Shown here piece by piece: positions 35,640-51,021 of a stretch of DNA of 64,000 nt. The stretch covers positions 2,418,001 through 2,482,000 of the forward strand of contig NZ_LGRO01000001.1 of the NCBI RefSeq assembly GCF_001280565.1, in the 5' to 3' direction. How positions within the stretch are numbered: the stretch's first letter is position 1; the number at the start of each line of letters is the position of its first letter. The notes below the pieces were generated by a model that worked only from the letters and a program-made list of their open reading frames with translations, was not told the DNA's origin and did not search any database. The position numbers and the translations under genes were made by a program. Source of the stretch: Sulfobacillus thermosulfidooxidans (GTDB taxonomy: Bacteria; Bacillota; Sulfobacillia; Sulfobacillales; Sulfobacillaceae).

Positions 35640-36015
35640 TTCCTTCTTTATACATAACGGTTCTAGAGTTCCACATCTCGCAATAAGGCATAGTTTATAA
35701 TAGTCATGGTCTGCACCAATATATAATAGTCCAATAGCCCGGACAAACCTTGCTTCTTTCGACGATTGTGGTCCTTAACGAAGCGATTTCAGTCTCGAAG
35801 TCCTAATTGGTCCATGTTTTGCAAATATTCATGTCAGAATTCATCAGAATAATTATCGCCGAGGAGGTCCGTATGTTGTGTCAGTCGGAGTGCCTTGCAT
35901 TTTTCCACACAAATAATTTTCATGGTCACCTAGGCTGCGGTGTGAAACGGCCTTTCCACCATCCTAATTCTACGAAAGCAGGTACACGAATCGTGTTCCG
36001 CACCAAATGATTGAG
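35640..36015 (-). pseudogene. Decayed duplicate of the methyltransferase gene
   Basis: The stretch runs parallel to 36975-37350 within the intact methyltransferase gene. Shared pieces include CTAATAGGTCCATATTGTGTAAAAATTC versus its mutated copy at 35800-35830 and CGGAGTGCCTTGC. The copy carries many substitutions, small gaps and stops. It is an older duplicate of a paralogue, or the second gene of an ancient pair. Confidence 0.75.
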
Positions 36016-36018
36016 CTG

Positions 36019-36054
36019 CTCTTGCGCACGTGGTGAATGACACGTGCGCAAGAG
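36019..36054. repeat. Perfect 14-bp inverted repeat
   Basis: CTCTTGCGCACGTG and CACGTGCGCAAGAG form a perfect stem with an 8-nt loop. It lies beyond the methyltransferase relic, between it and the Abi gene. No T tract follows. Confidence 0.65.
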
Positions 36055-36241
36055 GACATTGCATCAAGGAAGAGGAGTTAGAAAATCTTATTTATTATTT
36101 TTCTAATTTGAGATCGCTAATATAGACTAGGGATCGCTCAGTGTGTGATAATAATAACAACAGAGCCCACCACGCCTCTCACTATTACAGTGAAGCGGAC
36201 CAGGGTGGGACTTTTTAATTTATGATTTAGGTGAATCAATC

Positions 36242-36799
36242 ATGTCGCAACCAAGTGATGTAGAGGAACCTGCTATCGTTAAAAATGCAAAGTCTTTTGA
36301 AGAACAATTGGAAATTCTACGCAATCGAGGGCTTGTCATTTCAGATACCGAACAAGCTTTAGAAATTTTGACGCGAATAAAATATTATCGGTTAACCGGA
36401 TATGCTTTGTTCTTTATGGATAATACCCGGCAACGATTTCGTGATAGCACTACCTTTGATCAAATCATCAAACTTGCTGATTTTGATCAAAAGTTTCGAA
36501 GTCTCTTAACAGGGATTTTGGAACCTATAGAAATAGCCTTTCGCACACGTATTGCCTATGAATTAGCCCACCGATACGGACCATTAGGCTACAAGAATCC
36601 TGACAACTTCACCTCGCGAACTTACCATGATGAATTCATAAAAGTATTTACTGGGGTTTTTATATTACGTGAGCTCTATCCAAATCGCCAGGATTGGAAG
36701 AATTTTTTAATTCATTTAGAAGCCTTATTGTCAGAGTATGAATCCATTATCGATCTCGATAAGATTGGATTTCCTCCAGACTGGCAAAGTTTGTTGTAG
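36242..36799 (+). CDS. Abi_2 family abortive-infection protein with internal deletion
   Basis: The 185-residue protein has the Abi_2 start (SFEEQLEILRNRGLVISDTEQALEIL, then IKYYRLTGYALFF) and the family's end (LYPNRQDWKNFLIHLEALLSEYESIIDLDKIGFPPDWQ). Full family members have about 90 more residues between these parts, with the LRNxCAHHxRLWNR motif needed for activity. Here FTSRTYHDEFIKVF runs directly into TGVFILRELYPN. So an internal in-frame deletion seems to have removed the motif region. An upstream hairpin with T5 (36165-36215) may end earlier transcripts. Confidence 0.75.
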   Translation: MSQPSDVEEPAIVKNAKSFEEQLEILRNRGLVISDTEQALEILTRIKYYRLTGYALFFMDNTRQRFRDSTTFDQIIKLADFDQKFRSLLTGILEPIEIAFRTRIAYELAHRYGPLGYKNPDNFTSRTYHDEFIKVFTGVFILRELYPNRQDWKNFLIHLEALLSEYESIIDLDKIGFPPDWQSLL

Positions 36800-36833
36800 T
36801 GCAACTAATTGTTCTTCAGACTTTCTTATGATA

Positions 36834-37463
36834 TTAGGTGGTTTTCATGACAATCCATTGGTTATCCGAATAGCCGACATGCTTCCACCATGAGGGTAAT
36901 TCAGAAATCAATCGTGTCGGTCCAGGCCAGTTGGGGACGTCATCAAAGACAATAATCCCCCCTTCTTTTACGTAACCGCTCCAGAGTTCGAAATCCCGGC
37001 GTACAGCATAGTATTCGTGATCAGCATCAATAAATAATAATCCAATAGGTTGGTCAATTGGCCACGCCTTGGCCCCTTCGGCGGTTGTCATTCTTAAGGG
37101 AACAATCCAGTCCCGAAGACCTAATAGGTCCATATTGTGTAAAAATTCTTGGTAGAGTTGATCGGGACCATAATGGGCGAGAAGTTCGGTATGTTCTTTT
37201 TCACTCGGAGTGCCTTGCCAGGTATCGACGCAAATGACTTTTCCAACGGATTGCTGATCGGCTAAGGCTGCGGCCATCCATGCAGTGGACCGCCCTTTCC
37301 ATGACCCTAACTCCACAACAACAGGTACGGGAATTTTATTCTGGACCAAATGATACAAAGTTATGCCAGCAACAGGAGAGCACCATCCTTGAATGGGTTC
37401 AATTTGTTTTTGCCAATACTGAAGTCGTTGCTGAATCTCAGGAGGCAATTCATGAAAATTCAT
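36834..37463 (-). CDS. Class I SAM methyltransferase (Methyltransf_24/CmcI-like)
   Basis: The 209-residue protein has motif I VVELGSWKGRSTAWMAAAL, VICVDTWQG, LLFIDADHEYYAVRRDFELW and VFDDVP. These fit the Methyltransf_24 family, whose members modify sugars, O- or N-groups in glycans or antibiotics. It could methylate a glycan of the surface island, but that island is 6 kb away. Start at 37463; the upstream site is weak. A decayed copy lies at 35640-36015. Confidence 0.82.
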   Translation of the reverse strand: MNFHELPPEIQQRLQYWQKQIEPIQGWCSPVAGITLYHLVQNKIPVPVVVELGSWKGRSTAWMAAALADQQSVGKVICVDTWQGTPSEKEHTELLAHYGPDQLYQEFLHNMDLLGLRDWIVPLRMTTAEGAKAWPIDQPIGLLFIDADHEYYAVRRDFELWSGYVKEGGIIVFDDVPNWPGPTRLISELPSWWKHVGYSDNQWIVMKTT

Positions 37464-37554
37464 GGATTAACCGTTCTTTTTTGAAAATTTCCTATCGCAT
37501 TTTCCAGAAATAATGCTAGCATACAATCATTAATTTCCCTGCAAAATTAGCGAT

Positions 37555-38165
37555 TAATCTAGGAAAATCGTGCGGTGCGAGAAAACTCAAACCGAGGTGC
37601 CGTTTCGACTTGAGCCACGGTCAGATTGAAATCCTCCGAAATCTGATGAGGGGAACTTTTTGCTTTAAAATGTTCCCGAATAATTTCCGGCTGGACGCTT
37701 TTCCCGGAGATGATCGGCCATTCAAATCTAACGCGGGGCGAGAACTACGCCTCCTGGTGGCCTCATAATCAATGTCCTTCAAAAACGGGCCAAACACCTC
37801 GGCCTAGGCTTGTTTCCCACGCTCCCGTCCTACCTCGACCAATACGTCCTGACGCGAGACAAAAATCTCGCGGCCTCCGACCTTTAAGGGGCAACGAGAC
37901 GAAAGGCCGCTCTACCTGACAATTGTTGACAATTCTTGTGGATGCGTTGAATCAACTGCAGTGAAAAGCCCTCTTTTCTCAACTCTCCTACCACAATAAC
38001 CTCGATCAAGTCCCAAAACGATACCCCATTGAGCGAACTGAAGGACGACACGGGAGGACGGAAGACCACAGCGTCTTCTGTCTTTCCATTACGATAACCG
38101 ACAAGCCATCGCTTGGCAGTGCCGACTTGTACATTGGCGAGCCGAGTGGCACAGTAAAAAGCGTC
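37555..38165 (-). pseudogene. DUF433-type antitoxin pseudogene
   Basis: Read on the minus strand with two frame changes, the pieces are YKVGTAKRWLVGY, then SLNGVSFWDLIEVIVVGELRKEGFSLQLIQRI (the HTH of DUF433-type antitoxins), then FVSRQDVLVEVGRERGKQ, FGPFLKDIDYEAT, and finally EIIREHFKAKSSPHQISEDFNLTVAQVETA (DUF433). The order is that of full-length antitoxins. The cognate PIN-like toxin is not seen. So this is a dead antitoxin locus. Confidence 0.7.
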
Positions 38166-38817
38166 TTCACAAAGGCGGACACGATTTTCCTCGGTTTAAT
38201 AGAATCGTATGATTTTGTGTGCATAGAAAACATAACAACGTGGAGCATCGCAAGCACATTATGATTGATTATATTTTTCGAGATGAAAAATAGGTGGCCG
38301 TTGAGACGGTCTTTAGACACCGACATTTGGCGGCCATGATGGGATAGACGTGGACGATGCCGGAGCAAAATGCTGATCAGGTTTTTGCCATTATCTGGGT
38401 TCTTTCACATTGTGGTCAATCCGCGATTCCTTATCGGTTGACGTTACTCGGAGGGTGAGGGCGAGCGCAAATAGGCACTCTGAAATATCCGGTATTGTCG
38501 TCGAATAATTACATGGAAAAGAAACAAAAACCGAACCATAGGACGATTAAGGGGACGTAAAGCAAATTCATGTCGTTATCGTGTCGTTGTTGTTGACCTT
38601 TTTTGCAGAGTCCGGTAATGTTTGGCTAGTGTGAATTGAGGGACGTTTTTCTGTCTGAGATCGACATAGTATGTCCAGGTGCCGCGTCACGCTGGGGTGC
38701 CGGAAACTCCGATATGCACGGAATGAGTACCGAGATCGACGATCTGCAGTGTTCAATGGTGTACTTCGACAAGACCCTTTGTCATTAAACACTGCACGGT
38801 GGCTGGAGGAAATTTGT
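38166..38817. other. Gap without a clear gene
   Basis: About 650 bases with no supported ORF. Short frames here have no motif. The region probably contains the promoter for the amidohydrolase at 38818. Confidence 0.4.
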
Positions 38818-39930
38818 ATGAGTTGGATGGACGGAATTCCATTATGGGACCATCATTGTCATGCGTTAATCGACCCCAGCTTAGCTGGGGATATGGAACT
38901 GTTTGCTTATGCGTTAACCGAGGCGCCACGTTCGTATCCCTTGAAAGATATCCAACAAACCGTCACCTATTGGCAAGCATTGAGCATTGCGGCGCAAGAA
39001 TTAGGGACCCGCTGTGATGCCAAGGAGATAGAAATGTCTTTGCGCCAAACGGATTTTGGATCCTATTCCCGCTCTTTGTTTCACAAAGCAGGATATGAGC
39101 GCCTGTTGATTGACACCGGATTTACGCCGCAAGGCGGCTGGCCCTTATCCGAGCTAGAAAGTGTCTTGGCGATACCGATTATGAAGATTTTACGGCTAGA
39201 AACCACGGCCCAGGAACTGTTGTATCAATTTGCCGATGTGCGAGATTGGATTTTGGCGGTAAAGGACCGTGTGAAACACGCCCGGAGCCAGGGCTATGTA
39301 GGAATGAAATCGATTATAGCGTACCGTTCAGGTTTAGAGGTTTATCCTGTCCATTCAGAAGATGCGCAGGCGGCCTTTGCTGAGATGAAAAAGCAAGGCC
39401 AAACGCGGTTGACCGATCCGCGTTTACTCAACTATCTATTATGGGAATTGGCCCCGGTATTCATTGAAGAAGCTTTGCCTCTTCAGTTTCATACCGGCCT
39501 TGGTGATCCTGATACCAATTTGTATAAGGGCAATCCCTTGTTATTGCGAGATTTCCTCGAAACCTTTATTCCCCAAGGACTGCAAGTGACGTTGCTTCAT
39601 ACTTATCCCTATCACCGCGAAGCCGGATTCTTGGCGTCTGTCTATCCTAACGTTTATTTTGATGTGTCCTTAGCGCTGCCATTGGCAGCGAGTGGGGCCA
39701 AACGCATTGTGGCCGAAGCCTTGGAATTGGCTCCGGCCACTCGCGTGCTGTTTGCTTCCGATTCTCATACTCGTCCGGAAAGTTTCTATTTATCCGCAAC
39801 GCTTTGGAAACAGGGATTAGAAGCCTATTGCGATAGGATTACCCAAGACCATCATATTTTGCCTGAAGTGGCTGAACGTTGGATGAACCTGATTGCCTGG
39901 GAAAATTGTCGCCGCGTCTATCAACTTTAA
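38818..39930 (+). CDS. Amidohydrolase (FluG N-domain-like)
   Basis: The ATG at 38818 is 7 nt after GGAGGA; the ORF extends further but without a site. The 370-residue protein has IPLWDHHCHALID (first metal His pair), QFHTGLGDPDT, LHTYPYHREAGFLASVYPNVYFDVS and FASDSHTRPESFY (last metal Asp), the amidohydrolase_2 (PF04909) pattern. In fungi FluG fuses such a domain to a glutamine-synthetase-like domain; here the two are separate, convergent genes whose stops overlap by 4 bp. It may hydrolyse a gamma-glutamyl or aromatic amide. Substrate unknown. Confidence 0.82.
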   Translation: MSWMDGIPLWDHHCHALIDPSLAGDMELFAYALTEAPRSYPLKDIQQTVTYWQALSIAAQELGTRCDAKEIEMSLRQTDFGSYSRSLFHKAGYERLLIDTGFTPQGGWPLSELESVLAIPIMKILRLETTAQELLYQFADVRDWILAVKDRVKHARSQGYVGMKSIIAYRSGLEVYPVHSEDAQAAFAEMKKQGQTRLTDPRLLNYLLWELAPVFIEEALPLQFHTGLGDPDTNLYKGNPLLLRDFLETFIPQGLQVTLLHTYPYHREAGFLASVYPNVYFDVSLALPLAASGAKRIVAEALELAPATRVLFASDSHTRPESFYLSATLWKQGLEAYCDRITQDHHILPEVAERWMNLIAWENCRRVYQL

Positions 39931-41261
39931 TAGCGAAACCTGTGCCATGCGGCAATCTCTTCCGGAGATTTGTTCTGATAAAAAGCGACTTCGGAATGTT
40001 TGACGGCTAAGTAGCTTTGCATGAGCAATTCCCCCATGGCATCGTGCAACACGGCATTTTGCGCTAAATGACTCAGTGCTTGATCTAATGATGAAGGTAA
40101 GCGGATAATCCCCCGGATTTCCCGTTCATCCGCGGGAATATCATCAGGATTACTGAGGACGGGATCTTTGGGATCAAGCTTCTTGGTAATACCATCAAGA
40201 CCGGCGGCGATAAGTCCGCCTAAAGCTAAGTAGGGATTACTACTTAAATCTGCCGGTTTAAACTCCACATTCACGCTTTGTTGTTCTTGCGATTTAATCG
40301 GGGAAGCGATGCGTAAGGGCGCTTCCCGGTTATCCGGGCCCCAACAGGCGTAACTAGAACTCCAGGCATTAGGCACAAGACGCTGGTATGAATTGACACT
40401 CGGCGTCGTCAGCGCCAGTAAAGCGGGCAGATGGTGAAGAATGCCAGCCATGAACTGATAACCCATCGTGCTGAGTCGGTAGGGATCACGTGCGTCGTAA
40501 AACAGATTATTCCCTTCATCATCGAGGGCACTAAAGTGAATATGTCCTCCGTTTCCAGCTTGATCTAACCACGGTTTGGGGGCAAAGGACACTTGAAGTC
40601 CGTGACGTTTAGCGATGGCGCGGATAGTTTCTCGAATATAGAGTTGTTGACTGGCGGCCTCCATGATGGGGCGGTGGCGGACGGAAATTTCGTGTTGACC
40701 ATGCGCGAGCTCTGGATAATATTGCTCCAGAATAATCCCTTGCTGTTCGAGGTTCGTGGCGAGATCATCCAGAAAATCTTGGGAAATTAACATGCCTTGC
40801 GACGAGAAACATAACGTCTCATCCCATGGTTTCCCATCTTGGACGAGACTAAATTCGTTTTCAATACTGGCTTGGATCGTGATCCCCATAGCCTTCGCTT
40901 GTTGATCCATGCGTGCTAGAAAATGACGGGGACAGGCGTCCCATGGTTTTCCGTCAAGGGTTGTCATGACGGTGAGGACGGCTCCTGTGTGGGGCGCATA
41001 CGGCAAGATTTGAAAAGTCGATAAATCAGGGACGAGACGCACTTCCCCGACGGGCCCCATGCCTTCTACCGTTTGCAGTTGATCAAGACTATTCATTGCT
41101 TGCATGGCGACGGTAAGTCCAATCCCGCTGGATAATCTGGCGGGAAGGGTGGGAGCATAGGCCGATTTGCCACGAATAATGCCGCCGTTATCGCAATAGA
41201 GAAACCGGACAAAGCGAATATCTTGCTCCTGAACTTTCTCAAGCACATCGTCGAGTTCCAT
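39927..41261 (-). CDS. Glutamine-synthetase-family ligase (FluG C-domain-like)
   Basis: Start at 41261, after AAAGGAGT by 7 nt; 444 residues. The N domain has RFLYCDNGGIIRGKS, and the C domain has ASIENEFSL (metal E-x-E), NGGHIHFSAL (metal His), SYQRLVPNAWSS, and NVEFKPADLSSNPYLALGGLIAAGLDG. It lacks the tightly conserved glutamine-synthetase RIPxxxxxxxxxRxE spacing and aligns better with gamma-glutamyl-amine ligases. It probably joins glutamate to an amine at the cost of ATP. It sits back to back with a second family member (41543), with a shared regulatory region. Confidence 0.83.
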   Translation of the reverse strand: MELDDVLEKVQEQDIRFVRFLYCDNGGIIRGKSAYAPTLPARLSSGIGLTVAMQAMNSLDQLQTVEGMGPVGEVRLVPDLSTFQILPYAPHTGAVLTVMTTLDGKPWDACPRHFLARMDQQAKAMGITIQASIENEFSLVQDGKPWDETLCFSSQGMLISQDFLDDLATNLEQQGIILEQYYPELAHGQHEISVRHRPIMEAASQQLYIRETIRAIAKRHGLQVSFAPKPWLDQAGNGGHIHFSALDDEGNNLFYDARDPYRLSTMGYQFMAGILHHLPALLALTTPSVNSYQRLVPNAWSSSYACWGPDNREAPLRIASPIKSQEQQSVNVEFKPADLSSNPYLALGGLIAAGLDGITKKLDPKDPVLSNPDDIPADEREIRGIIRLPSSLDQALSHLAQNAVLHDAMGELLMQSYLAVKHSEVAFYQNKSPEEIAAWHRFRY

Positions 41262-41319
41262 AAAGTACTCCTTTTCACTGAGAGTTGTGATCATCTCATT
41301 TCATTATGGCGATCTTCTT

Positions 41320-41385
41320 CGGCAAAAAAATTTGGTATTCCGCCTAAAAATTCTCCCGATACACAAAAAATTTCGGGAATTGTGT
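41320..41385. promoter_or_regulatory. Candidate operator pair between the two ligase genes
   Basis: Two similar words, GGCAAAAAAATTTGGTATTC (41321-41340) and ACACAAAAAATTTCGGGAAT-TGTGT (41361-41385, also a palindrome ACACAA-N13-TTGTGT), resemble the reverse of a third, ATTTCCAAGAATTTTTGGCA (46203-46222), in front of the IclR gene. They may be sites for that regulator. Confidence 0.4.
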
Positions 41386-41542
41386 CACATTCAGCAGGAA
41401 AAATGCCTGGCAATCACGAATTAAAAATGAAATTTACATTCCATTTCTCTTGTTATTCTATCTCACCATATTTTCCCATGCCACAGAGTTGAGACATATT
41501 TGTTCTTAAATTTGTTCTTAAGATGATCAGGAGGCGTGATAC

Positions 41543-42880
41543 GTGACATATGAAGACATCAACCGGTTGATTGCGGACAACGATATCGAAGTGATCCGGG
41601 TCGTGTTTAATGACATCACCAATGTATCCCGGGCCCGCAACATCCCGGTGAAATATTTTCAGGAAACCGTGATGCAAAAAGGTGTGCAATATCCTTCTGC
41701 GATGTTATCGGTCGATACCTCCGCCAACTTTGTCTTAGCGGCGGGCGCAGGATTTGCCGGAGGTTATGGGAGCTGGCTATTAAAAATCGATCCGGAAACC
41801 TTCCACATCATCCCTTGGGCGAAAAAGAGTGCGCGGGTGATTGCGGATCTGTACACGTTAGATGAAGTGCCCGTTCCGGTGGCACCCCGGTCAGTCTTGC
41901 AGCGCGTCCTTAAGGAATTCGATAAAGAAGGATTGGGTACTTATGGTGCGGCTGAGCTCGAATTTTACATCTTTAAGCAATATGATGAACACGGCTTTGA
42001 ACCGACGTGGACTGGTCTTCAATGCTATTCCGAAATTAAACAGGGAGAAATTGACGAAATTTTGTATCAAATCGTCAGCGGCCTAGCGGCTGTAGGGATT
42101 CACGTCGAAGCCGCTAATACCGAGTATGGCCCAGGGCAATTTGAAATATCGATTAATCCGCAATGGGGTATTGCCCAAGCGGATGTGGCCTTCACTCTCA
42201 AGACGGCAATTAAAGAAATGATGGCCCAACGGGGGCTCTTGGCGACTTTTATGACGAAGCCGTTAACAGGGCTCAGTGGCAGTGGCAGTCATTTCCATCA
42301 TTCGCTCTATCACAAGGCCACCGGTCAAAATGCCTTGTTTGACCCAGAAGGTGACTATGGGCTAAGTGACTTGGCTAAACATTTTATCGCCGGGCAATTG
42401 CACCACGCCAAGGCCATATCGGCTTTGGCTAATCCGACCATCAATTCCTATCACCGCTTGCGTCCTTATACTTTTGCACCGAGTAATGTGACGTGGGGCC
42501 TGGAAAATCGGATGTGTATGATTCGTATTCCTGGCGCAAGGGGACAAGGAACCCACATTGAGAACCGCTTACCGGGAGCGGACAATAATCCCTATTTGAT
42601 GATGGCTGCCATGTATGCCGCGGGATTAGATGGCATAAGACGGCAATTGCCGGTACCTCCACCCGTAGAGAATGAAGATGCTTACGCTAAATCGGATGCA
42701 TCGTCCCTTCCGAAAACTCTTGGGGAGGCTCTTGACGCCTTAAATGAGGATGAGGTGCTAGTTAGTCTGTTAGGGCCTGAATTTGTCCAAGCCTTTACGG
42801 CACTCAAAACAAACGAAATTAACCGCTTTATGGATCATGTTTCTGACTGGGAAGTCAAAGAATACCGTGAACTCTTTTAG
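41543..42880 (+). CDS. Glutamine-synthetase-family ligase, probably gamma-glutamyl-amine synthetase
   Basis: The 445-residue protein starts at the GTG at 41543 behind AGGAGG. It has GAAELEFYIFKQYD (E-x-E), NTEYGPGQFEIS, LSGSGSHFHHSLY (GxGxHxHxSL), NSYHRLRPYTFAPSN, and ENRLPGADNNPYLMMAAMYAAGLDG. This pattern fits PuuA/GlnT-type ligases more than the house-keeping GlnA. It is followed after 11 bases by the AhpD-like gene, so they are one operon with the permease. It probably adds glutamate to an amine taken up by that permease. Confidence 0.86.
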   Translation: MTYEDINRLIADNDIEVIRVVFNDITNVSRARNIPVKYFQETVMQKGVQYPSAMLSVDTSANFVLAAGAGFAGGYGSWLLKIDPETFHIIPWAKKSARVIADLYTLDEVPVPVAPRSVLQRVLKEFDKEGLGTYGAAELEFYIFKQYDEHGFEPTWTGLQCYSEIKQGEIDEILYQIVSGLAAVGIHVEAANTEYGPGQFEISINPQWGIAQADVAFTLKTAIKEMMAQRGLLATFMTKPLTGLSGSGSHFHHSLYHKATGQNALFDPEGDYGLSDLAKHFIAGQLHHAKAISALANPTINSYHRLRPYTFAPSNVTWGLENRMCMIRIPGARGQGTHIENRLPGADNNPYLMMAAMYAAGLDGIRRQLPVPPPVENEDAYAKSDASSLPKTLGEALDALNEDEVLVSLLGPEFVQAFTALKTNEINRFMDHVSDWEVKEYRELF

Positions 42881-42891
42881 GAGGAGAGTCG

Positions 42892-43311
42892 ATGAGCTTA
42901 GTCGAGGGTGTCGCTGAAGATAAGGCGGTCGGAATAGTTAAAGAGATTTATGAAGAAATGAAGCAGGTTCGGGGATGGAACCGCATTCCCGCTATTTGGC
43001 GGGTGATGGCTCTAAAACCCGAATATCTCAAGGTCAACTGGGAGCGCTACAAGAAAATCATGATGCAAGGCCAGATCGACGCCAAGACCAAGGAGATGTT
43101 GGCCTTGGCAGTCAGCATGGTGAATGGTTGCAGCTACTGAATTGACAGCCATTCTTTCGCGTTGCGAAAGATGGGAATGACCGATGAGGAATTGGTTGAG
43201 TTGGTTTCAGTTATTGACTTTTTTTCGGGGACGAATGCCATGTCGACAGCTTTAAAGATTGCCTTTGAATGGCCATCGCTACCATCACACCCAGATGAAT
43301 CAGCCCATTGA
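42892..43311 (+). CDS. AhpD-like carboxymuconolactone decarboxylase family protein, candidate selenoprotein
   Basis: Start at 42892 follows GGAGGAGAG. The frame runs 82 codons to a TGA (43138-43140) and then stays open for 56 more codons to 43309-43311; 139 residues in all. Downstream residues IDSHSFALRKMGMTDEELVELVSVIDFF are typical of AhpD-like proteins. The UGA sits at residue 83 in C80-S-Y-U83, with E68 twelve residues before C80 and H87 four after U83. This is the spacing of AhpD E118, C130, C133 and H137, so UGA replaces the second redox Cys. A SECIS-like hairpin follows. It likely acts as a CxxU redox or peroxidase-type protein. If UGA is not read, the product is truncated. It is 11 bases after the ligase gene. 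Confidence 0.8.
43149..43174 (+). promoter_or_regulatory. Candidate bacterial SECIS hairpin
   Basis: CCAU pairs with AUGG, a single U bulges, then CUUUCGC pairs with GCGAAAG across a GUU loop. The loop starts with G and is 20 nt after the UGA; bacterial SECIS elements have at least one G in the first two loop bases and 16-37 nt spacing. An E. coli-type bulged U is also present. Confidence 0.7.
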
Positions 43312-43405
43312 TTCGAACGGCTTCGTTTATTTGGGCCCGCACAAAATTGGGGTGGGTTTAAAGAGGAATCTTGAATATCGATATAAGAAGGGAGCGTTAT
43401 GCACC

Positions 43406-45004
43406 GTGAAGTCTGATTTGGATTATGCCAATCAATCCGCTGACCCTAAACAAAGCAGCTATAAAAAAGAATTAGGTTTTTGGACCGTCGTGTTTTTAGC
43501 CACGGGCGGCATATTGGGACCTGCCGTTGGGTTCACGCCCGTGTCTGTGCTAGCTTTGGCCGGACCATCTGGCATTTTGTCGTGGATTATTGCTTTTCTC
43601 TTAATCATGGCGGTTGCCATGGCTTATGTGGAACTGGGAACCATGTGGCCCAAGGCAGGAGGTGTGGCCTACTATCCTGCCAAAAGTAGTGGGTCCATTG
43701 TCGGCGTGATGAATGCTTGGGGGTCTTTTGTGGGTTATGCTTTAGCGGTTCCGTCGATTGTTGTGGCCTTCGTGGAATACTTGAGTTATTGGTTCCCGGG
43801 TTTATATAAAGGTGGGACCTTAACCACTACTGGCATCGTTTCCGCCATCGCCGTGACTGTTGTCATCTTTTGGATTAATACTTTGCGTATTCGATATATG
43901 GGTCAGTTAAATAACATTTTTACGGTATTAACTATTATTGGCCTTGTTGTGGTCAGTTTGGTGCTGTTGGCGCATATGCATCCCAGTAACTTTCACCATT
44001 TTCACGGGTTTGTTCCTTTTGGAACCTCGGGTCTGTTTCTCGCTATCTCTGCAACGATTTATGGATATGGTGGCTTTCGGCAGCCGATCGATTATGCCGA
44101 AGAAGTTAAGGACCCAGGGACAACCATTCCAAAAGCGGTCTTTTTGACCATGATTATTACGCTGGTCATCTATTTTCTCGAAAGTCTTTCCTATCTTGGC
44201 GCCATCAACTGGAACGGGATTGGCGTCCAAGCGGGAAATTGGTCTGGATTATCAAGTTTGGCCTATCCCTTTGTTTCTATTGGTCATGGTATCGGGCTTC
44301 CAATTATCGGGCTCATTGCCATGATTACCATGCTTATTGCCTCGTTTAAAGATGGTTATATCTATTTTGGTGGCGCAAGCCGGGTGGGATATTCGCTGAG
44401 TTACTATGATGGGTACTTGCCCAAAATCTTTACGCATATGACCAAAAATGGGATTCCGTTGCCGTCCGTTCTATTAGTGTTGGTGGTGTCGTCGTTATAT
44501 ATTATTTTGTTACCATCTTTCTCGTCTCTTTTTCCATTAGTGGCGAGTGCCTTATTGTTGTCTTATGCTCCGGGTCCTTTGAGTTTGGCGATTTTTCGCG
44601 CAAAATATCCTCGTGAACCAAGACCTTACGTATTGCCAGCGTACAAGATCCTCGCTCCTTTTGCCTTTATGATCAGTACGTTAATGATTTATTGGTCAGG
44701 ATGGGCCTCCGTACACATTTTGATTCCTTCAGTGTTTATTGGTTTATTGCTCCTGCTCTTTTATCGTAAACATAGCCGCATTACTCAAGGTGACTGGCGC
44801 ATGGGTCTATGGTTCCCCATCTTTCAGATTGTGTTGATGGGTCTATCTTACATGGGGAGCAAGAATTTTGGTGGTCACAATCTCATTTCCTCACCTTGGG
44901 ACACGGTAGTGGTAGGACTTGTCGCGTTAGTATTTTACTATTGGGGATTATCGTCGGGATTAAGATGGCAAGAACATGACACATTTGTTGAGTCTCCGCA
45001 CTAA
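43406..45004 (+). CDS. Amino acid/amine permease (APC superfamily)
   Basis: I start at the GTG at 43406, 11 nt after AAGGGAG; the upstream frame to 43259 overlaps the AhpD-like gene. The 532-residue protein has about 12 membrane segments. Helix 1 FLATGGILGPAVGF, the TM2-3 stretch GPSGILSWIIAFLLIMAVAMAYVELGTMWPKAGGVAYYP and YAEEVKDPGTTIPKAV are typical of APC transporters (GABA/polyamine-like group). It probably imports the amine used by the ligases upstream. No other gene follows for 440 bases. Confidence 0.87.
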   Translation: MKSDLDYANQSADPKQSSYKKELGFWTVVFLATGGILGPAVGFTPVSVLALAGPSGILSWIIAFLLIMAVAMAYVELGTMWPKAGGVAYYPAKSSGSIVGVMNAWGSFVGYALAVPSIVVAFVEYLSYWFPGLYKGGTLTTTGIVSAIAVTVVIFWINTLRIRYMGQLNNIFTVLTIIGLVVVSLVLLAHMHPSNFHHFHGFVPFGTSGLFLAISATIYGYGGFRQPIDYAEEVKDPGTTIPKAVFLTMIITLVIYFLESLSYLGAINWNGIGVQAGNWSGLSSLAYPFVSIGHGIGLPIIGLIAMITMLIASFKDGYIYFGGASRVGYSLSYYDGYLPKIFTHMTKNGIPLPSVLLVLVVSSLYIILLPSFSSLFPLVASALLLSYAPGPLSLAIFRAKYPREPRPYVLPAYKILAPFAFMISTLMIYWSGWASVHILIPSVFIGLLLLLFYRKHSRITQGDWRMGLWFPIFQIVLMGLSYMGSKNFGGHNLISSPWDTVVVGLVALVFYYWGLSSGLRWQEHDTFVESPH

Positions 45005-45188
45005 GGACAATAATTCCTGTTAACGTATCTCTTCTAAAAGGCAAGGCCTATGGTTCAAAGGCACTAACCTTTCATTGGCGGATGTTGCAGATTGATTTCG
45101 CAACCGTCTTGTTACAGGAACTGGCATAGCCAACCTATACAGATCACAATAGAAGAACTTGGGTGGCTATGCCCAGTTATTGAAAATA

Positions 45189-45231
45189 ACTCCCACTGCA
45201 AAGCCTCCTAAGGCAGGCTTGCAGTGGGAGT
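45189..45231 (+). terminator. Long hairpin downstream of the permease
   Basis: ACTCCCACTGCAA-A-AGCCT pairs with AGGCT-TGCAGTGGGAGT; 17 bp with one bulged A and loop CCTAAGGC. A CTCTTTTTTAG run starts about 10 nt later. It is probably the operon's 3' end. Confidence 0.6.
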
Positions 45232-45439
45232 CTTACGCTTCTCGCTCTTTTTTAGCCATTCCAAGGTCGTTCAGCAAGGGTTCCGGAAAAAGATCGATTC
45301 GTCAGACTTTCATCCTTGTATGCGGTGTGGCAATCCTGTTTATCAACACGTGCTATTACAACATATAAAACTATATCATGAAGGGACCCAGTATCCAGGT
45401 GGCCCCTTCAGTGATTATATTCAGATGGTCATAGATTAA
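45224..45439 (+). CDS. Possible small zinc-ribbon/zinc-finger protein
   Basis: A 71-codon frame has FHPCMRCGNPVYQHVLLQHIKLYHEG, with a CxxC and two or three spaced His, as in a zinc finger. Its GTG start lies inside the hairpin and no ribosome binding site is visible, so the true start may differ. No homologue recognised. Confidence 0.35.
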   Translation: MGVLRFSLFFSHSKVVQQGFRKKIDSSDFHPCMRCGNPVYQHVLLQHIKLYHEGTQYPGGPFSDYIQMVID

Positions 45440-45444
45440 CGGAC

Positions 45445-46128
45445 TTATGAGATTTCCATGGCCTTTGCATAAGGAATTGGTTCGATGGATGTTGCCTGGG
45501 GAAAAATCACCTCGAATACATAATCATCGAGACTATGTAAGCTGGTTGTCACCAGTTGCATGGAGGCGATGCGGAAAAGGTAACACGGATTTTCTTCATT
45601 GCCCGCATAGACGGCCAATCTTCCCTGTGATGTTAATGCCATGAAATTCGCCCGTCCTTCTAAATGCTGGTGGGTGTCAATAAGAGCCTCGGTGATGGTG
45701 CGGCCTTGTTGCATTTGCTGGAGCCAATAATAATAGCCAACTTCACTGTCGGATGTTCCTTCTAACTGTCCGGCAAATTCTTGCCGGTAGGCCTTATGAC
45801 GACTTAAGAAGCCGTTGTGGGCAAATGCATAGGTTCTCAGAGGATCGCAATAGGGCTGGGCATTAAGGGGACTTTGTGTCGTCATCAGGCTCGGCCGTCT
45901 TAAGTGAATAAACGTACGGCGCGTCTTAACCGCCCTAAGTGCATCGTCCGCATAGGGATCGTTCCGTAAGCCATATAAAGACCTATACCGGTGAAGCCCC
46001 ATCTCATCAACCCAGGCCATACCCCAGCCATAACCTGCAACGCCTAGTTCTTCGAGGTTCCTGGCCCATGCCAAGAGTTCTGATATATTGATAAAATCAG
46101 GGGATGAAACGGCTAACATTTCGCACAT
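45445..46128 (-). CDS. Class II glutamine amidotransferase (YafJ-like)
   Basis: The 227-residue protein starts behind AGGAGGATCG. It begins MCEMLAVSS, so Cys2 is the Ntn nucleophile after Met removal. VAGYGWGMAW, FIHLRRPS, YAFAHNGFL, EGTSDSEVGYY and VTTSLHSLDDY are the GATase_6 core (YafJ/DUF family, EgtC-related). It would hydrolyse a gamma-glutamyl amide. In the cluster it could release glutamate from a gamma-glutamyl amine, as PuuD does with an unrelated fold. Opposite strand to the permease. Confidence 0.85.
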   Translation of the reverse strand: MCEMLAVSSPDFINISELLAWARNLEELGVAGYGWGMAWVDEMGLHRYRSLYGLRNDPYADDALRAVKTRRTFIHLRRPSLMTTQSPLNAQPYCDPLRTYAFAHNGFLSRHKAYRQEFAGQLEGTSDSEVGYYYWLQQMQQGRTITEALIDTHQHLEGRANFMALTSQGRLAVYAGNEENPCYLFRIASMQLVTTSLHSLDDYVFEVIFPQATSIEPIPYAKAMEIS

Positions 46129-46202
46129 GGCGATCCTCCTACACGTTCAATTTTGACAAAATGAATTCGTTTAGTTCCCTCTGGTTTCCTGCCTGTTCGG
46201 GC

Positions 46203-46222
46203 ATTTCCAAGAATTTTTGGCA
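46203..46222. promoter_or_regulatory. Candidate IclR operator copy
   Basis: ATTTCCAAGAATTTTTGGCA resembles two words between the ligase genes (41320-41385). It contains a CCAA-N6-TTGG palindrome. It is located in front of the regulator gene, where auto-regulation would be expected. Confidence 0.4.
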
Positions 46223-46345
46223 ATCTATCCAGGTCAAGAAGGAATTTTTGCTGAGATGACGAAGTTATCTTAAGAAATGGAATATAGATTTCATTTTACC
46301 GAATTGGTCTTGAAATGTCAGGGGGGAATGAAGAAGGGGGAGGTC

Positions 46346-47113
46346 ATGGCACCACAACAAGAAGAATCCCGCATGCCATCACTGCGGGCCTTAGAACGAG
46401 GTCTTCAATTATTAGACTACCTCATCCGGGTTAAAGAAGCCCGCTTGCATAAAATTGCGGAAGAGACTTTTTTGCCTTCGTCAACCACGCACCGTTTATT
46501 ACAAGCTTTAGAACGCCATGGCTACGTGACAGAGACCCAGCATGGACTCTATAAGCTAGGGATGAAAGGATTTTTGTTAACCGGAGTTCGGGAAAGCATT
46601 CGCCATGTCTTAGAAGATTTGCAGAAGAAAACGGGAGAAACGGTCAACTTGGCCATGCTCGTGCAAGATGAAATGGAGTATGTGGAGCGTGCGGTCTCTG
46701 ATCATGCTTTGTCTTTTGTGGTGTCCGTCGGACAGCGCATTCCGCTTAATTGTAGTGCGCTCGGCAAAGCAGTCCTGGCGTATCAACCAGGTCTCCTTGA
46801 ACATCTGAGCCTTGAGAAAAGAACCTCTCATTCCATTACCGACCTGATTGAATTGAAGGCCGAATTAGAAGTCGCCAGGCACCGCGGCTTTACCCTGGAT
46901 AACGAGGAATATTTTGATGGGGTGTTTTGTGTGGCAGTGCCGGTGTTTGATCACAGTGGGGACGCCATTGGGGGCGTGTCCATTTCAGGTCCCACGGTGC
47001 GCTTTTCCCGCGAACAAGCCTTTCAATTTGCGCCGTTGTTAAAAGCATCGGGAGAACGGATTAGCCAATTACTGCAAACCCACGAGGAAGGAGAAGCCAA
47101 ACATGGCCAATGA
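46346..47113 (+). CDS. IclR-family transcription regulator
   Basis: I start at 46346 (MAPQQEES), behind AAGGGGGAGG; starts at 46277 and 46328 are possible. The 255-residue protein has an N-terminal HTH (SLRALERGLQLLDYL...STTHRLLQALERHGYV) and the IclR effector domain (LNCSALGKAVLAYQP, GFTLDNEEYFDGVFCVAVPVFD, GGVSISGP). It likely controls the amine cluster. It overlaps the next gene by 11 bases. Confidence 0.88.
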   Translation: MAPQQEESRMPSLRALERGLQLLDYLIRVKEARLHKIAEETFLPSSTTHRLLQALERHGYVTETQHGLYKLGMKGFLLTGVRESIRHVLEDLQKKTGETVNLAMLVQDEMEYVERAVSDHALSFVVSVGQRIPLNCSALGKAVLAYQPGLLEHLSLEKRTSHSITDLIELKAELEVARHRGFTLDNEEYFDGVFCVAVPVFDHSGDAIGGVSISGPTVRFSREQAFQFAPLLKASGERISQLLQTHEEGEAKHGQ

Positions 47114-47549
47114 CACATCGTCTCAAGATAATAAATATTTTGCCCAACCACAAAATCGGGTAGTAGAGGTCTTGGAAGATTTTCTACCCCAATACATCAA
47201 TATTGATCAACTCCCCATTTCCATCGTAGCGGAAGGAGTGGGGCTTAAAGGAGTATTTGGCCAAAATCTTCTGTTGTCTTTTGTCTATATGAAGCCCCAT
47301 TCGGTGGCCGCTATCCATAGCCATCCGGAAGAGCAAATCGGTCTTGTTTTAGAGGGGGAATACGAATTTGAGCTTAACGGCGTGAGGAAATTGATTGGAA
47401 AAGGGGATGTGTATATTGTGCCCCCGAATGTGCCTCATGGAGCCATCACTCACGACAAAGCGTGCCTGGCTCTGGACATTTTTGCCCCGCCGCGCTCGGG
47501 TTACCGGGAAATGCTCGAAAACACGCATAAAGTCATGACCTTTGATTAA
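47103..47549 (+). CDS. Cupin domain protein
   Basis: A 148-residue single-domain cupin with HSHPEEQIGLVLEGEYEFEL (metal site H-x-H-x-E) and GDVYIVPPNVPHGAI (second cupin motif, His). It starts inside the IclR gene (11-base overlap), behind AAGGAGAAG, so it is co-translated. It may be an enzyme (isomerase or dioxygenase) or a small-molecule sensor. Its substrate is not known. Confidence 0.85.
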   Translation: MANDTSSQDNKYFAQPQNRVVEVLEDFLPQYINIDQLPISIVAEGVGLKGVFGQNLLLSFVYMKPHSVAAIHSHPEEQIGLVLEGEYEFELNGVRKLIGKGDVYIVPPNVPHGAITHDKACLALDIFAPPRSGYREMLENTHKVMTFD

Positions 47550-47633
47550 GCCCCAAAGACTGACGAAGGATCGTCGTTAGACCAGGAAATTAATTACCAA
47601 GTGCGAACATTATCTTTAAGGGAGCGAGATGAC

Positions 47634-48374
47634 GTGGATTTAGGACTGCATGATCAAGTGGCCATTGTCACCGGAGGATCGCGCGGTGTTGGTCAAGCCA
47701 TTGTGAAAGAACTACTGGATGAAGGGGTGAAGGTTGCAACGGGAAGTCGCCATCCTGAGGATTTTGATCCGGACCTCGTAGATGCCAAGAATGTGATGAG
47801 CCGTTATCTGGATGTGACAGATCCCGCTAGCATTGATGCCTTTGTTACCGAAGTGACTGAGCGGTTTGGAAAGGTCGATATGCTCGTCAATAATGCGGGA
47901 AAAGCCTATCCCGGCTCTTTTGCTACCTTAAGCGATGACGATTGGCAGCGCGATATCAATGTTAAACTGATGGCGCAGGTGCGGATGGCACGCCGGGTTC
48001 TGCCGGTGATGCCAGATGGTGGACGCATTATTAATATGTCAGCCGTCTTTGGCAAGCAGCCGGATCCTCGCTTTTTTGCGTCCAGCGTCAATCGTGCTTC
48101 GTGCTTGTCATTCACGAAAACCTTAGCGAAAGAACTCGCGCCTCGTCTTATCCGAGTCAATGCGGTCAATATTGGCTTTGCCTATTCCGGTCAATGGGAG
48201 GGGAAAACCCCAGAATTTTTTGCGGAATTATGTGAGGCATTTGATGTTCCCTTAAGACGGTTTGGCGAGCCGGAAGAAGTGGCGGCTGTTGTCGTCTTTC
48301 TTCTCTCCCAACGGGCATCTTACGTCACAGGGACCATTGTCGATGTGGACGGGGGACTGGCAAAGTATTTGTAG
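47634..48374 (+). CDS. SDR-family oxidoreductase with altered active site
   Basis: I start at the GTG 47634 behind AAGGGAG; 246 residues. The NAD(P) site is TGGSRGVG, then NNAG (residue 79-82), and IRVNAVNIG. The Ser (INMSAVFG) is present. The usual Y-x3-K is replaced by F-A-S-S-V in PDPRFFASSVNRASC, so both the catalytic Tyr and Lys are missing. This variant (with VNRA) occurs in a small SDR subgroup; activity may be different or absent. It follows the cupin by about 80 bases. Confidence 0.85.
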   Translation: MDLGLHDQVAIVTGGSRGVGQAIVKELLDEGVKVATGSRHPEDFDPDLVDAKNVMSRYLDVTDPASIDAFVTEVTERFGKVDMLVNNAGKAYPGSFATLSDDDWQRDINVKLMAQVRMARRVLPVMPDGGRIINMSAVFGKQPDPRFFASSVNRASCLSFTKTLAKELAPRLIRVNAVNIGFAYSGQWEGKTPEFFAELCEAFDVPLRRFGEPEEVAAVVVFLLSQRASYVTGTIVDVDGGLAKYL

Positions 48375-48480
48375 CGCCTATGATGAAAGGGACTCAGGGA
48401 ACCTGAGATGTCATGACGGCTTGACCCGTTCCGGTATGATGGATTTAGAAGCCCAAGTGCCGCGTCATAGGGGGACAATA

Positions 48481-49155
48481 GTGAAACTCTTGGTGGTCGA
48501 AGATGAAAATTCGCTTGCGCGTTTAATGCAATTAGAACTCAGTCACGCGGGATTTTCGGTCGACGTCGTGCATAATGGTCATGATGCCTTGCGCTATTTT
48601 GTGGAACATCAGTATGACTGTATTTTGTTGGATGTGATGCTGCCCGATTTGAGTGGTTTTGAGATTTGCCGGCGTATCCGGCTTCAGGCATCCATTCCCA
48701 TCATTATGGTGACCGCTCGCGGACAGACTCCGGATATTGTGGCAGGACTCGAACTGGGTGGGGACGATTATATCGTTAAGCCGGTGAATTTCGAAGAATT
48801 GACCGCCCGAATTCGCGCGGTGACACGCCGAAACCACATGCTGCAGCATGATGCCGAGAAACTTGTGATGAAGAACCTCGTCTTGGTCATTGATGAATTC
48901 CGGGCAGAGGTGGCGGGAAAGCCCTTGACTCTCAGTGCGCTGGAATTTCGTCTGCTAGAGCATTTTGTTCGCAATCACAAATTGGTGCAGACCCGAGAGG
49001 TCTTACTGGAACATGTTTGGGGTATCGATTTTCGGGGCGAGAGCAACATGGTTGATGTAAGTGTGGGCCGATTGCGCCGTAAATTACGCCGTGCAGGCAG
49101 TGATGTTGACATTGAGACCATTCGAGGTGTGGGCTATGTTTTGCGAAACGGGTAA
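48481..49155 (+). CDS. OmpR-family response regulator
   Basis: I start at the GTG at 48481 (VKLLVVEDENSLARLMQ), 225 residues. The receiver has EDE (Asp pocket), LLDVMLPD with phosphoacceptor Asp, VTAR and KPVNFEEL (Lys). The DNA-binding winged helix (LTLSALEFRLLEHFV...VDVSVGRLRRKL) is the OmpR/PhoB type. The partner histidine kinase follows after 6 bases. It probably regulates the downstream secreted and redox genes. Confidence 0.92.
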   Translation: MKLLVVEDENSLARLMQLELSHAGFSVDVVHNGHDALRYFVEHQYDCILLDVMLPDLSGFEICRRIRLQASIPIIMVTARGQTPDIVAGLELGGDDYIVKPVNFEELTARIRAVTRRNHMLQHDAEKLVMKNLVLVIDEFRAEVAGKPLTLSALEFRLLEHFVRNHKLVQTREVLLEHVWGIDFRGESNMVDVSVGRLRRKLRRAGSDVDIETIRGVGYVLRNG

Positions 49156-49161
49156 GAAAAA

Positions 49162-50544
49162 ATGGGATTAGCTGGTCGCCTCACCGTCTCTCTTATTGCC
49201 GCGTTACTGGTTGTGTTTGGTCTTCTAGGGGGCAGTCTTGTGTTGAATCTCAGCCATCATTTGGTGATGCAGGCGCAGGAGGAAGCACAAACTGTAGCCC
49301 GTCAATCGGCCCAGTTAGCGTCAAACGGCGGGGTCAAGGGACAACATCTATCCCTTAATGATCCGGGAATGATTGCTGCGGCTGAAGGTCGGTCCACGCT
49401 TTATCTTCAAGTGTCCCAAGGTAACAACATTGTGCAACGTTCCAGCGATCTGGGTAGAGCCATTTTGCCCATTCAACCCTTGTCGCCCCGGTTGCTGTAT
49501 TGGGCTCATATACCGCTTTGGGGATCGTCAGCTCCTCTAATGACCCTTCCCCGTGGTCGCGTTGTCCTTGCTTGGGCCCCGATTTGGCAACAAGGACACA
49601 AAATTGGTGAAATTGAGGCGGCGGTATCACTTCGGGGGACATTAAATGCCATTCAAACCGTGGGACAAGGCTTATTAGTCGTTGGTATCACGGCCTTAGT
49701 CTTGGCTTCTTTGGTGAGTGCTTTGTTGGTCTACCGATCCTATTCTCGGGTTCGCTGGCTTAAAAACGCGGTGGCTCAAATTCGATCCGGCAACGATTTG
49801 GCCCAGCGCTTGAATATTGAGGGACCACGTGATGAAGTGTATGACCTGGCCCAGGCCTTTAATCACATGGTCAATCAATTAGACGAGAGTTTTCAACGCC
49901 AGAGGCTTGTCGTGGCCCACGCCTCTCATCAACTGCGGACACCTATTGCCACAGCCATTGGTTATGCCAATATGTTAAGAAATTGGGGGCAATCCGAACC
50001 GGACTTGGTCGCAGAAGGGCTCGAAGTCATTCATGAACAACTCGAACGGCTTCACCGGACTATTGAAGCGATTCTCAAATTGGCTGAAACCGACGAGGCA
50101 AAGGACCTAAAAACTGAGGCTATTGTCCTGAAATCCTACCTGGCAACATGGGTTCTGTCACAAACGATCCCGGTAGAATTGGATGGACAACCTAACGTCA
50201 CGGTGCGTTTTCACCCGGACATGTTCGCCGAACTATTGAATATCTTTGGGGAAAATGCCCGGCGATATGGCGGGGGCCGTCCGCAATTGCGAATTCATTG
50301 GGTATTAGACGACACAACCTCTCGTGTTATATTGACGCTAACAGATAACGGACCGGGATTTCCTGCCGATTTGTTGCCGCATCTTTTTCATCCCTTTGTG
50401 AAACATACGGAAAGTCCGGGATCGGGTTTGGGTTTGGCGCTGGCCCGAACTATAGTAGAGCGTCATGGAGGACGCATTTTTGCCGCCAACAGTCCGCAAG
50501 GCGGGGCTCAAATTACTATTGTCTTACCCCAACTGGCGTCATAA
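49162..50544 (+). CDS. Sensor histidine kinase
   Basis: The 460-residue protein has two membrane helices (residues 7-32 and about 168-192) around an extracytoplasmic sensor domain, then HAMP, HisKA (HASHQLRTPIATAIGYANML, His at the QLRTP box), and HATPase_c (NIFGENARRYG N box, DNGPGFP G1, GSGLGLALA G2). It pairs with the regulator upstream. The signal is unknown; because it is next to exported redox proteins it may be envelope redox or acid stress. Confidence 0.92.
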   Translation: MGLAGRLTVSLIAALLVVFGLLGGSLVLNLSHHLVMQAQEEAQTVARQSAQLASNGGVKGQHLSLNDPGMIAAAEGRSTLYLQVSQGNNIVQRSSDLGRAILPIQPLSPRLLYWAHIPLWGSSAPLMTLPRGRVVLAWAPIWQQGHKIGEIEAAVSLRGTLNAIQTVGQGLLVVGITALVLASLVSALLVYRSYSRVRWLKNAVAQIRSGNDLAQRLNIEGPRDEVYDLAQAFNHMVNQLDESFQRQRLVVAHASHQLRTPIATAIGYANMLRNWGQSEPDLVAEGLEVIHEQLERLHRTIEAILKLAETDEAKDLKTEAIVLKSYLATWVLSQTIPVELDGQPNVTVRFHPDMFAELLNIFGENARRYGGGRPQLRIHWVLDDTTSRVILTLTDNGPGFPADLLPHLFHPFVKHTESPGSGLGLALARTIVERHGGRIFAANSPQGGAQITIVLPQLAS

Positions 50545-50712
50545 GGGCGTATTGAGAGTTAACGCACCCCATCAGGATTTCAACATCCTTTCGCTGCACT
50601 GTGCTTGCTTTGTCATGAGATTGTCATGTTCCCTTCACTTTCGTGTTAACCAGGAAGGATACCCTGTGGATGTGGGAGCCACAAGGTTTTCCCACAATAA
50701 GGAGGGCAATGC

Positions 50713-51021
50713 ATGGCTATATGGTATGTCAAGCCGATGATAGGGCTTATCGCAACAGCAGGACTGCTTGGGGCTGCAACAACTATAGCGAGTGCTCATT
50801 CTTTGCCGTCTCAAGTGGTGCCAGCTCAGACTAAGGCGCTGGTGACGGCGGATACGAATGAGACAGATGGCATCGATCAGGGCGTGAATGATCAGAAGGG
50901 TGCCGATGTACAGTCTGGTCCCAATGTGAACTCAGGCCCTAATGCACAGTCGGGTGTGCAAAGTGTAGGGGGCGGACCGGACAATCAAGCCGCAACGTCT
51001 TTACAAGAAAAGGGTCAATAA
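50713..51021 (+). CDS. Small secreted Asn/Gln/Gly-rich protein
   Basis: A 102-residue protein behind TAAGGAGGGC. Residues 1-30 are a signal peptide (MAIWYVKPMIGLIATAGLLGAATTIASA-HS). The mature part is rich in Asp, Asn, Gly, Gln, with repeats such as VQSGPNVNSGPNAQSGVQS. No Cys. No family is known. It could be an envelope filler or a target of the two-component system. Confidence 0.6.
   Translation: MAIWYVKPMIGLIATAGLLGAATTIASAHSLPSQVVPAQTKALVTADTNETDGIDQGVNDQKGADVQSGPNVNSGPNAQSGVQSVGGGPDNQAATSLQEKGQ

Follow-up and report, generated by a model that had tools for sequence, protein, structure and literature searches.

Selenoproteins with an AhpD-like or CMD-like domain and a CxxU active site are listed families from the Sargasso Sea and GOS data (PMC1088965, PMC2398784, PMC13188914). 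These families, defined from marine metagenomes, carry a CMD/AhpD domain with Sec second in CxxU and a bacterial SECIS element (bSECIS) just downstream, and the peroxidase-related model TIGR01926 is the listed home of AhpD-like CxxU selenoproteins (PMC13188914). In Sulfobacillus, two papers have reported PrxU and formate dehydrogenase as Sec proteins. A further described system is the pairing of a glutamine synthetase (GS)-like ligase with an amidotransferase-like hydrolase in aniline and naphthylamine pathways, namely AtdA1/AtdA2 and NpaA1/NpaA2 (PMC11335346). We found no paper that describes the AhpD-like gene studied here, or that connects selenoproteins of the AhpD-like type to gamma-glutamyl-amine genes. 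What is new at this locus is a very probable AhpD-like selenoprotein gene that always accompanies a cluster predicted to degrade an amine.

The window, a stretch of 64,000 nucleotides from Sulfobacillus thermosulfidooxidans, contains an open CMD/AhpD-fold gene of 139 codons at 42892-43311 (plus strand), read as MSLV...NGCSY-U-IDSHSFALRKMG... and ended by a TGA at 43309-43311. Its start lies 11 nt past the stop codon of a GS-like ligase gene and is preceded by AGGAGGAG. The frame holds one internal UGA, codon 83 (43138-43140, plus strand), at the second redox position of the C-S-Y-U motif, that is, at the second Cys of a CxxC site. The earlier note had described AhpD-like sequence beyond this UGA, as well as the C-S-Y-UGA context and the spacing of E68, C80, U83 and H87, the candidate relay residues; all of this was reproduced in our reading. 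Ordinary gene callers end at the UGA, so that annotations can easily lack such a protein or show it truncated.

We then considered the Sec machinery, on which the earlier note had made its proposal depend. All four genes were present in the genome above curated cut-offs: selA (557 bits), selB (361 bits), selD (362 bits) and selC, a tRNA-SeC with anticodon tca (UCA) that scored 64.5 bits. The selD gene carries an in-frame UGA of its own (KSG-U-GCKL), with a compact hairpin whose 3-nt GGA loop lies 17 nt downstream and which is comparable to that of the AhpD-like gene. This selD (L017:1501-2436; C1:2149778-2150713 in its own genome) has a single in-frame UGA and is itself a predicted selenoprotein. 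The full pathway speaks against a reading of codon 83 as Cys or Trp, or its leaky readthrough, without selenium. Misincorporation of Cys would yield a working protein, given that Cys is the aligned residue in relatives, but UGA also appears to terminate some of the genes near by, and the hairpin described below follows the SECIS rules and is conserved in UGA forms only; we consider decoding without selenium very improbable. An alternative genetic code was rejected because UGA apparently ends neighbouring genes and the aligned residue is Cys.

Orthologues were searched in 42 genomes of the order, and eight were found, the window gene included; the others are 63-90% identical to the window protein. 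Seven of the eight, again counting the window gene, have TGA at codon 83, and the eighth, in G036, has TGC. Wider searches added two Cys forms, one in G152 and one in Alicyclobacillus mengziensis, and an extra contig search gave the Alicyclobacillus match and one short doubtful match only. The alignment of homologues that the earlier note had proposed thus places a Cys codon (TGC or TGT) at the UGA position in three orthologues. Both selA and tRNA-Sec were present in all three genomes with a Cys form. For the UGA-bearing G037, whose assembly is fragmented, selA was found, and no tRNA-Sec match was obtained at E <= 1e-8 among the 150 of 362 candidates that were scored.

These orthologues bear directly on the possibility that the UGA stems from a mistake in sequencing or from recent nonsense mutation in a pseudogene. 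One related locus lends this idea some colour: L040 (G116), an AhpD-like relative elsewhere in the phylum, contains a TAG in frame within the open stretch that matched, and is possibly decaying. Seven genomes, however, share UGA at the same codon, the frame beyond it is conserved, and synonymous conservation is in excess just 3' of it. Error and pseudogene were accordingly rejected on the strength of the orthologues with the same UGA, and we regard either as scarcely credible.

The hairpin downstream of the UGA was examined in both the window sequence and its orthologues. The bSECIS hairpin spans 43149-43174 (plus strand), and its conserved core consists of CUUUCGC (43154-43160), a GUU loop (43161-43163) and GCGAAAG (43164-43170). 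The earlier note had placed, 20 nt downstream, an 11-bp stem with a bulged U and a GUU loop. The hairpin and its GUU loop were confirmed, but the 11-bp stem with its bulge was overstated, as only the 7-bp core is conserved: the window does have the lower CCAU/AUGG stem (43149-43152 with 43171-43174) and the bulged U, and two of the four lower pairs are broken in some orthologues. The distance of 20 nt holds for the loop, not for the stem. Published bSECIS rules ask for a loop of 3-9 nt with G in one of its first two positions, a distance of 16-37 nt from the UGA, a stem of 4-16 bp and an MFE <= -7.5 (PMC13188914). The hairpin here has a 3-nt loop (GUU) at 20 nt, a 7-bp core and an energy of -13.7 kcal/mol, which bears out on every point the earlier statement that it fits bacterial SECIS rules. 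A search of 36000-51000 against Rfam families returned no match.

Folding of the 61-nt stretch from the UGA gave -20.4 kcal/mol (z -3.5), and none of 200 shuffles was equally stable; the best ViennaRNA fold has 8 bp, an internal loop and two further pairs. When codons were redrawn according to local usage while the amino acids were kept, 322 of 20,000 trials (1.6%) reached the native hairpin energy and 30 of 20,000 reproduced the exact stem. Because recoding reaches the native energy at this rate, the hairpin of one sequence is moderate evidence by itself. Conservation among the orthologues makes the hairpin evidence decisive, and it is this conservation, not the single fold, that bears the argument.

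We compared codon identity among the UGA forms, counting only comparisons with the same amino acid and taking the codons outside 83-96 as background. Codons 88-93 were codon-identical in 114 of 120 comparisons (95%), compared with 676 of 1496 (45%) in the background, and they formed the best 6-codon identity window of the whole gene. The 7-bp core stem was paired in 49/49 cells of the UGA forms, where the single core change, from U-A to U-G, keeps the pairing. In the three Cys forms, by comparison, 5/7, 2/7 and 3/7 core pairs remained (10/21 in total), indicating that the stem is broken. No pair was altered on both sides in the UGA orthologues, whose core is nearly invariant; covariation was therefore dropped as proof of the SECIS element, and synonymous-codon conservation was used in its place.

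The conserved hairpin might also have a regulatory purpose, such that scarce selenium would limit the protein through termination at the UGA and the hairpin would mainly control expression of the downstream permease. The position of the gene between the ligase and the permease, whose GTG start lies about 95 nt past the AhpD-like stop, would suit such an arrangement. Against it, the sequence 3' of the UGA is conserved at the protein level, and the Cys form of G036 occupies the same cluster position without an intact hairpin, which makes this explanation highly unlikely. Taken together, the exchange of UGA and Cys codons, the conservation of the SECIS element and the presence of the Sec machinery strongly support the reading that codon 83 encodes selenocysteine and that the gene is a selenoprotein gene of the CMD/AhpD superfamily, to which we assign a probability of roughly 0.93.

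The direction of the exchange was approached through trees. When the neighbouring ligase and amidotransferase genes were used for a tree, G036 stood beside a UGA form with 98/95 support; the tree of the AhpD protein alone has weak forks and does not settle the order of the Sec and Cys changes. The simplest reading of these sequences is that Sec was replaced by Cys in G036. Since the genomes with Cys forms still hold selA and tRNA-Sec, the Cys was not imposed by pathway loss. The G036 orthologue (L028) retains a partly broken SECIS stem. The family offers a natural experiment: one relative carries Cys instead of Sec within the same cluster, and its genome keeps selA and tRNA-Sec.

Profile searches placed the protein in the CMD/AhpD superfamily. 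Pfam CMD (PF02627) was passed with 74.3 bits against a cut-off of 23, and the AhpD core domain model TIGR00778 with 64.9 bits against 27.8. TIGR01926 fell short (67.9 against 81.8 bits), and the protein passed no NCBIfam model that bears a selenoprotein name. NF041047 (GSU3128; 26.2 against 110 bits), NF041238 (CFYUT; 34.2 against 175 bits) and NF053654 (YciW-related; 28 against 310 bits) likewise stayed below their cut-offs. Because no NCBIfam selenoprotein model was passed and the TIGR01926 cut-off was missed, the protein looks like an unnamed subgroup of the known AhpD-like CxxU kind, and the earlier note was right that this kind is already known. Set beside the Sargasso Sea and GOS families by description, it differs as a single-domain subgroup of about 130-139 aa in a putative gamma-glutamyl-amine cluster.

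The AlphaFold2 model, built from an alignment of 19 sequences with C at codon 83, showed an all-helical AhpD-core fold (pLDDT 86.7). The best solved match was 2OUW, the AhpD-core protein YP_425393.1 of Rhodospirillum rubrum (TM 0.75, sequence E 1.3e-22), which has the same length and a CSYC motif but carries Cys where the window protein has Sec. Compared with AhpD of Mycobacterium tuberculosis (1KNC/1GU9), E68, C80, U83 and H87 correspond with identical spacing to E118, C130, C133 and H137 (residues from PMC3141380). The M. tuberculosis protein differs in having 177 aa, differently placed active-site helices and His132 where Tyr82 stands here, and the sequence match between the two is weak (E 4e-5). 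Canonical AhpD (TIGR00777) was missed at 34.8 against 191.95 bits, with four of the five relay residues present and His132 replaced by Tyr, a substitution also seen in most of the AhpD-like structures compared in PMC3141380.

We next examined the genes around the AhpD-like gene. Directly upstream lies the GS-like ligase, a putative gamma-glutamyl-amine ligase (41543-42880, plus strand), and the conserved downstream neighbour is an APC-family amino acid/amine permease with a GTG start (43406-45004, plus strand). Further along are a class-II glutamine-amidotransferase-like hydrolase (45445-46128, minus strand), which occurs in all larger orthologous cluster regions examined, an IclR-family regulator (46277-47113, plus strand), a cupin-domain protein (47103-47549, plus strand) and a short-chain dehydrogenase/reductase (SDR; 47601-48374, plus strand). 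Together with the AhpD-like gene, these genes make up the conserved cluster. An Amidohydro_2 family hydrolase (38671-39930, plus strand), which lies close to the ligases in the majority of orthologous clusters, and a second, divergently oriented GS-like ligase (39927-41294, minus strand) accompany the cluster in many genomes. Both GS-like proteins matched the GS and gamma-glutamylputrescine synthetase models below the cut-offs. Around the Alicyclobacillus Cys form the cluster is rearranged and again contains the ligase, amidotransferase-like, IclR, cupin and SDR genes. In two relatives a class-IV aminotransferase is located between cupin and SDR (L051, 4138-5103; L055, 11202-12170); in other relatives the cupin and SDR are separated by comparable distances. 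The window lacks the aminotransferase gene at that place (47549-47601). An Abi_2-family (abortive infection) protein is encoded near the cluster at 36242-36799 of the window.

The arrangement resembles the AtdA1/AtdA2 and NpaA1/NpaA2 clusters in that a GS-like ligase stands beside a glutamine-amidotransferase-like hydrolase, and differs from them in its extra members, namely the selenoprotein, APC permease, amidohydrolase, SDR and cupin. In the cluster genes that were scanned, no Rieske dioxygenase turned up. Of the 42 genomes, the eight that contain the ligase are precisely those that contain the AhpD-like gene, and the two adjoin in all eight. If these were independent draws, such co-occurrence would have a chance of about 1e-8 (1 over 42-choose-8), a figure that is only indicative given the relatedness of the genomes and the adjacency of the genes.

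On this basis a mechanism can be proposed. SelB and Sec-tRNA-Sec would recode the UGA of codon 83, guided by the hairpin with its GUU loop 20 nt downstream. The product would be an all-helical protein of 139 residues, whose C80-S-Y-U83 centre together with E68 and H87 would form the AhpD proton-relay set with Tyr for His132. By analogy with AhpD chemistry, the U83 selenolate, activated via E68, H87 and possibly Y82, may act as the nucleophile that attacks or reduces a hydroperoxide or another electrophile; C80 would then resolve the selenenyl-sulfide, and a thiol system would recycle the protein. In the cell it probably serves amine catabolism, either as a redox relay or by removing a by-product that is reactive or oxidised.

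The earlier note had left a choice between amine use and peroxide defence. The pattern of co-occurrence links the gene with the amine cluster, and general defence is the less favoured part of that proposal. A true selenoprotein could nevertheless be a general antioxidant AhpD that partners AhpC and is unrelated to amine use, as the fold and the active-site residues would allow. Its restriction to genomes with the ligase cluster (8/42 of the order), its absence from most near relatives and the distance of its score from the NCBIfam ahpD cut-off make this unlikely. The linkage to the amine cluster makes a pathway-specific role likelier than general defence, and we moderately favour a thiol or selenol peroxidase or redox relay dedicated to the cluster; here we infer the role, the substrate and the identity of the amine alike. 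A peroxide role in particular is a guess, because no amine oxidase or other source of H2O2 was identified in the cluster. A tentative and rather doubtful suggestion is that one particular step of gamma-glutamyl-amine degradation is catalysed or protected by the selenoprotein; selenium chemistry would then serve amine catabolism, with a natural Sec-to-Cys replacement in the same cluster. Functions have been predicted for single-domain AhpD-like selenoproteins, and the strict linkage of this gene to a cluster putatively degrading an amine offers a concrete way to approach the substrate of one of them.

A distant second AhpD-like protein of the order was also observed in G001 (L034, about 1501-1761), with a UGA in H-C-E-P-UGA-A-V-S-H. 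A hairpin of -14.7 kcal/mol lies just downstream of this UGA and the genome has selA, so this may be another AhpD-like selenoprotein.
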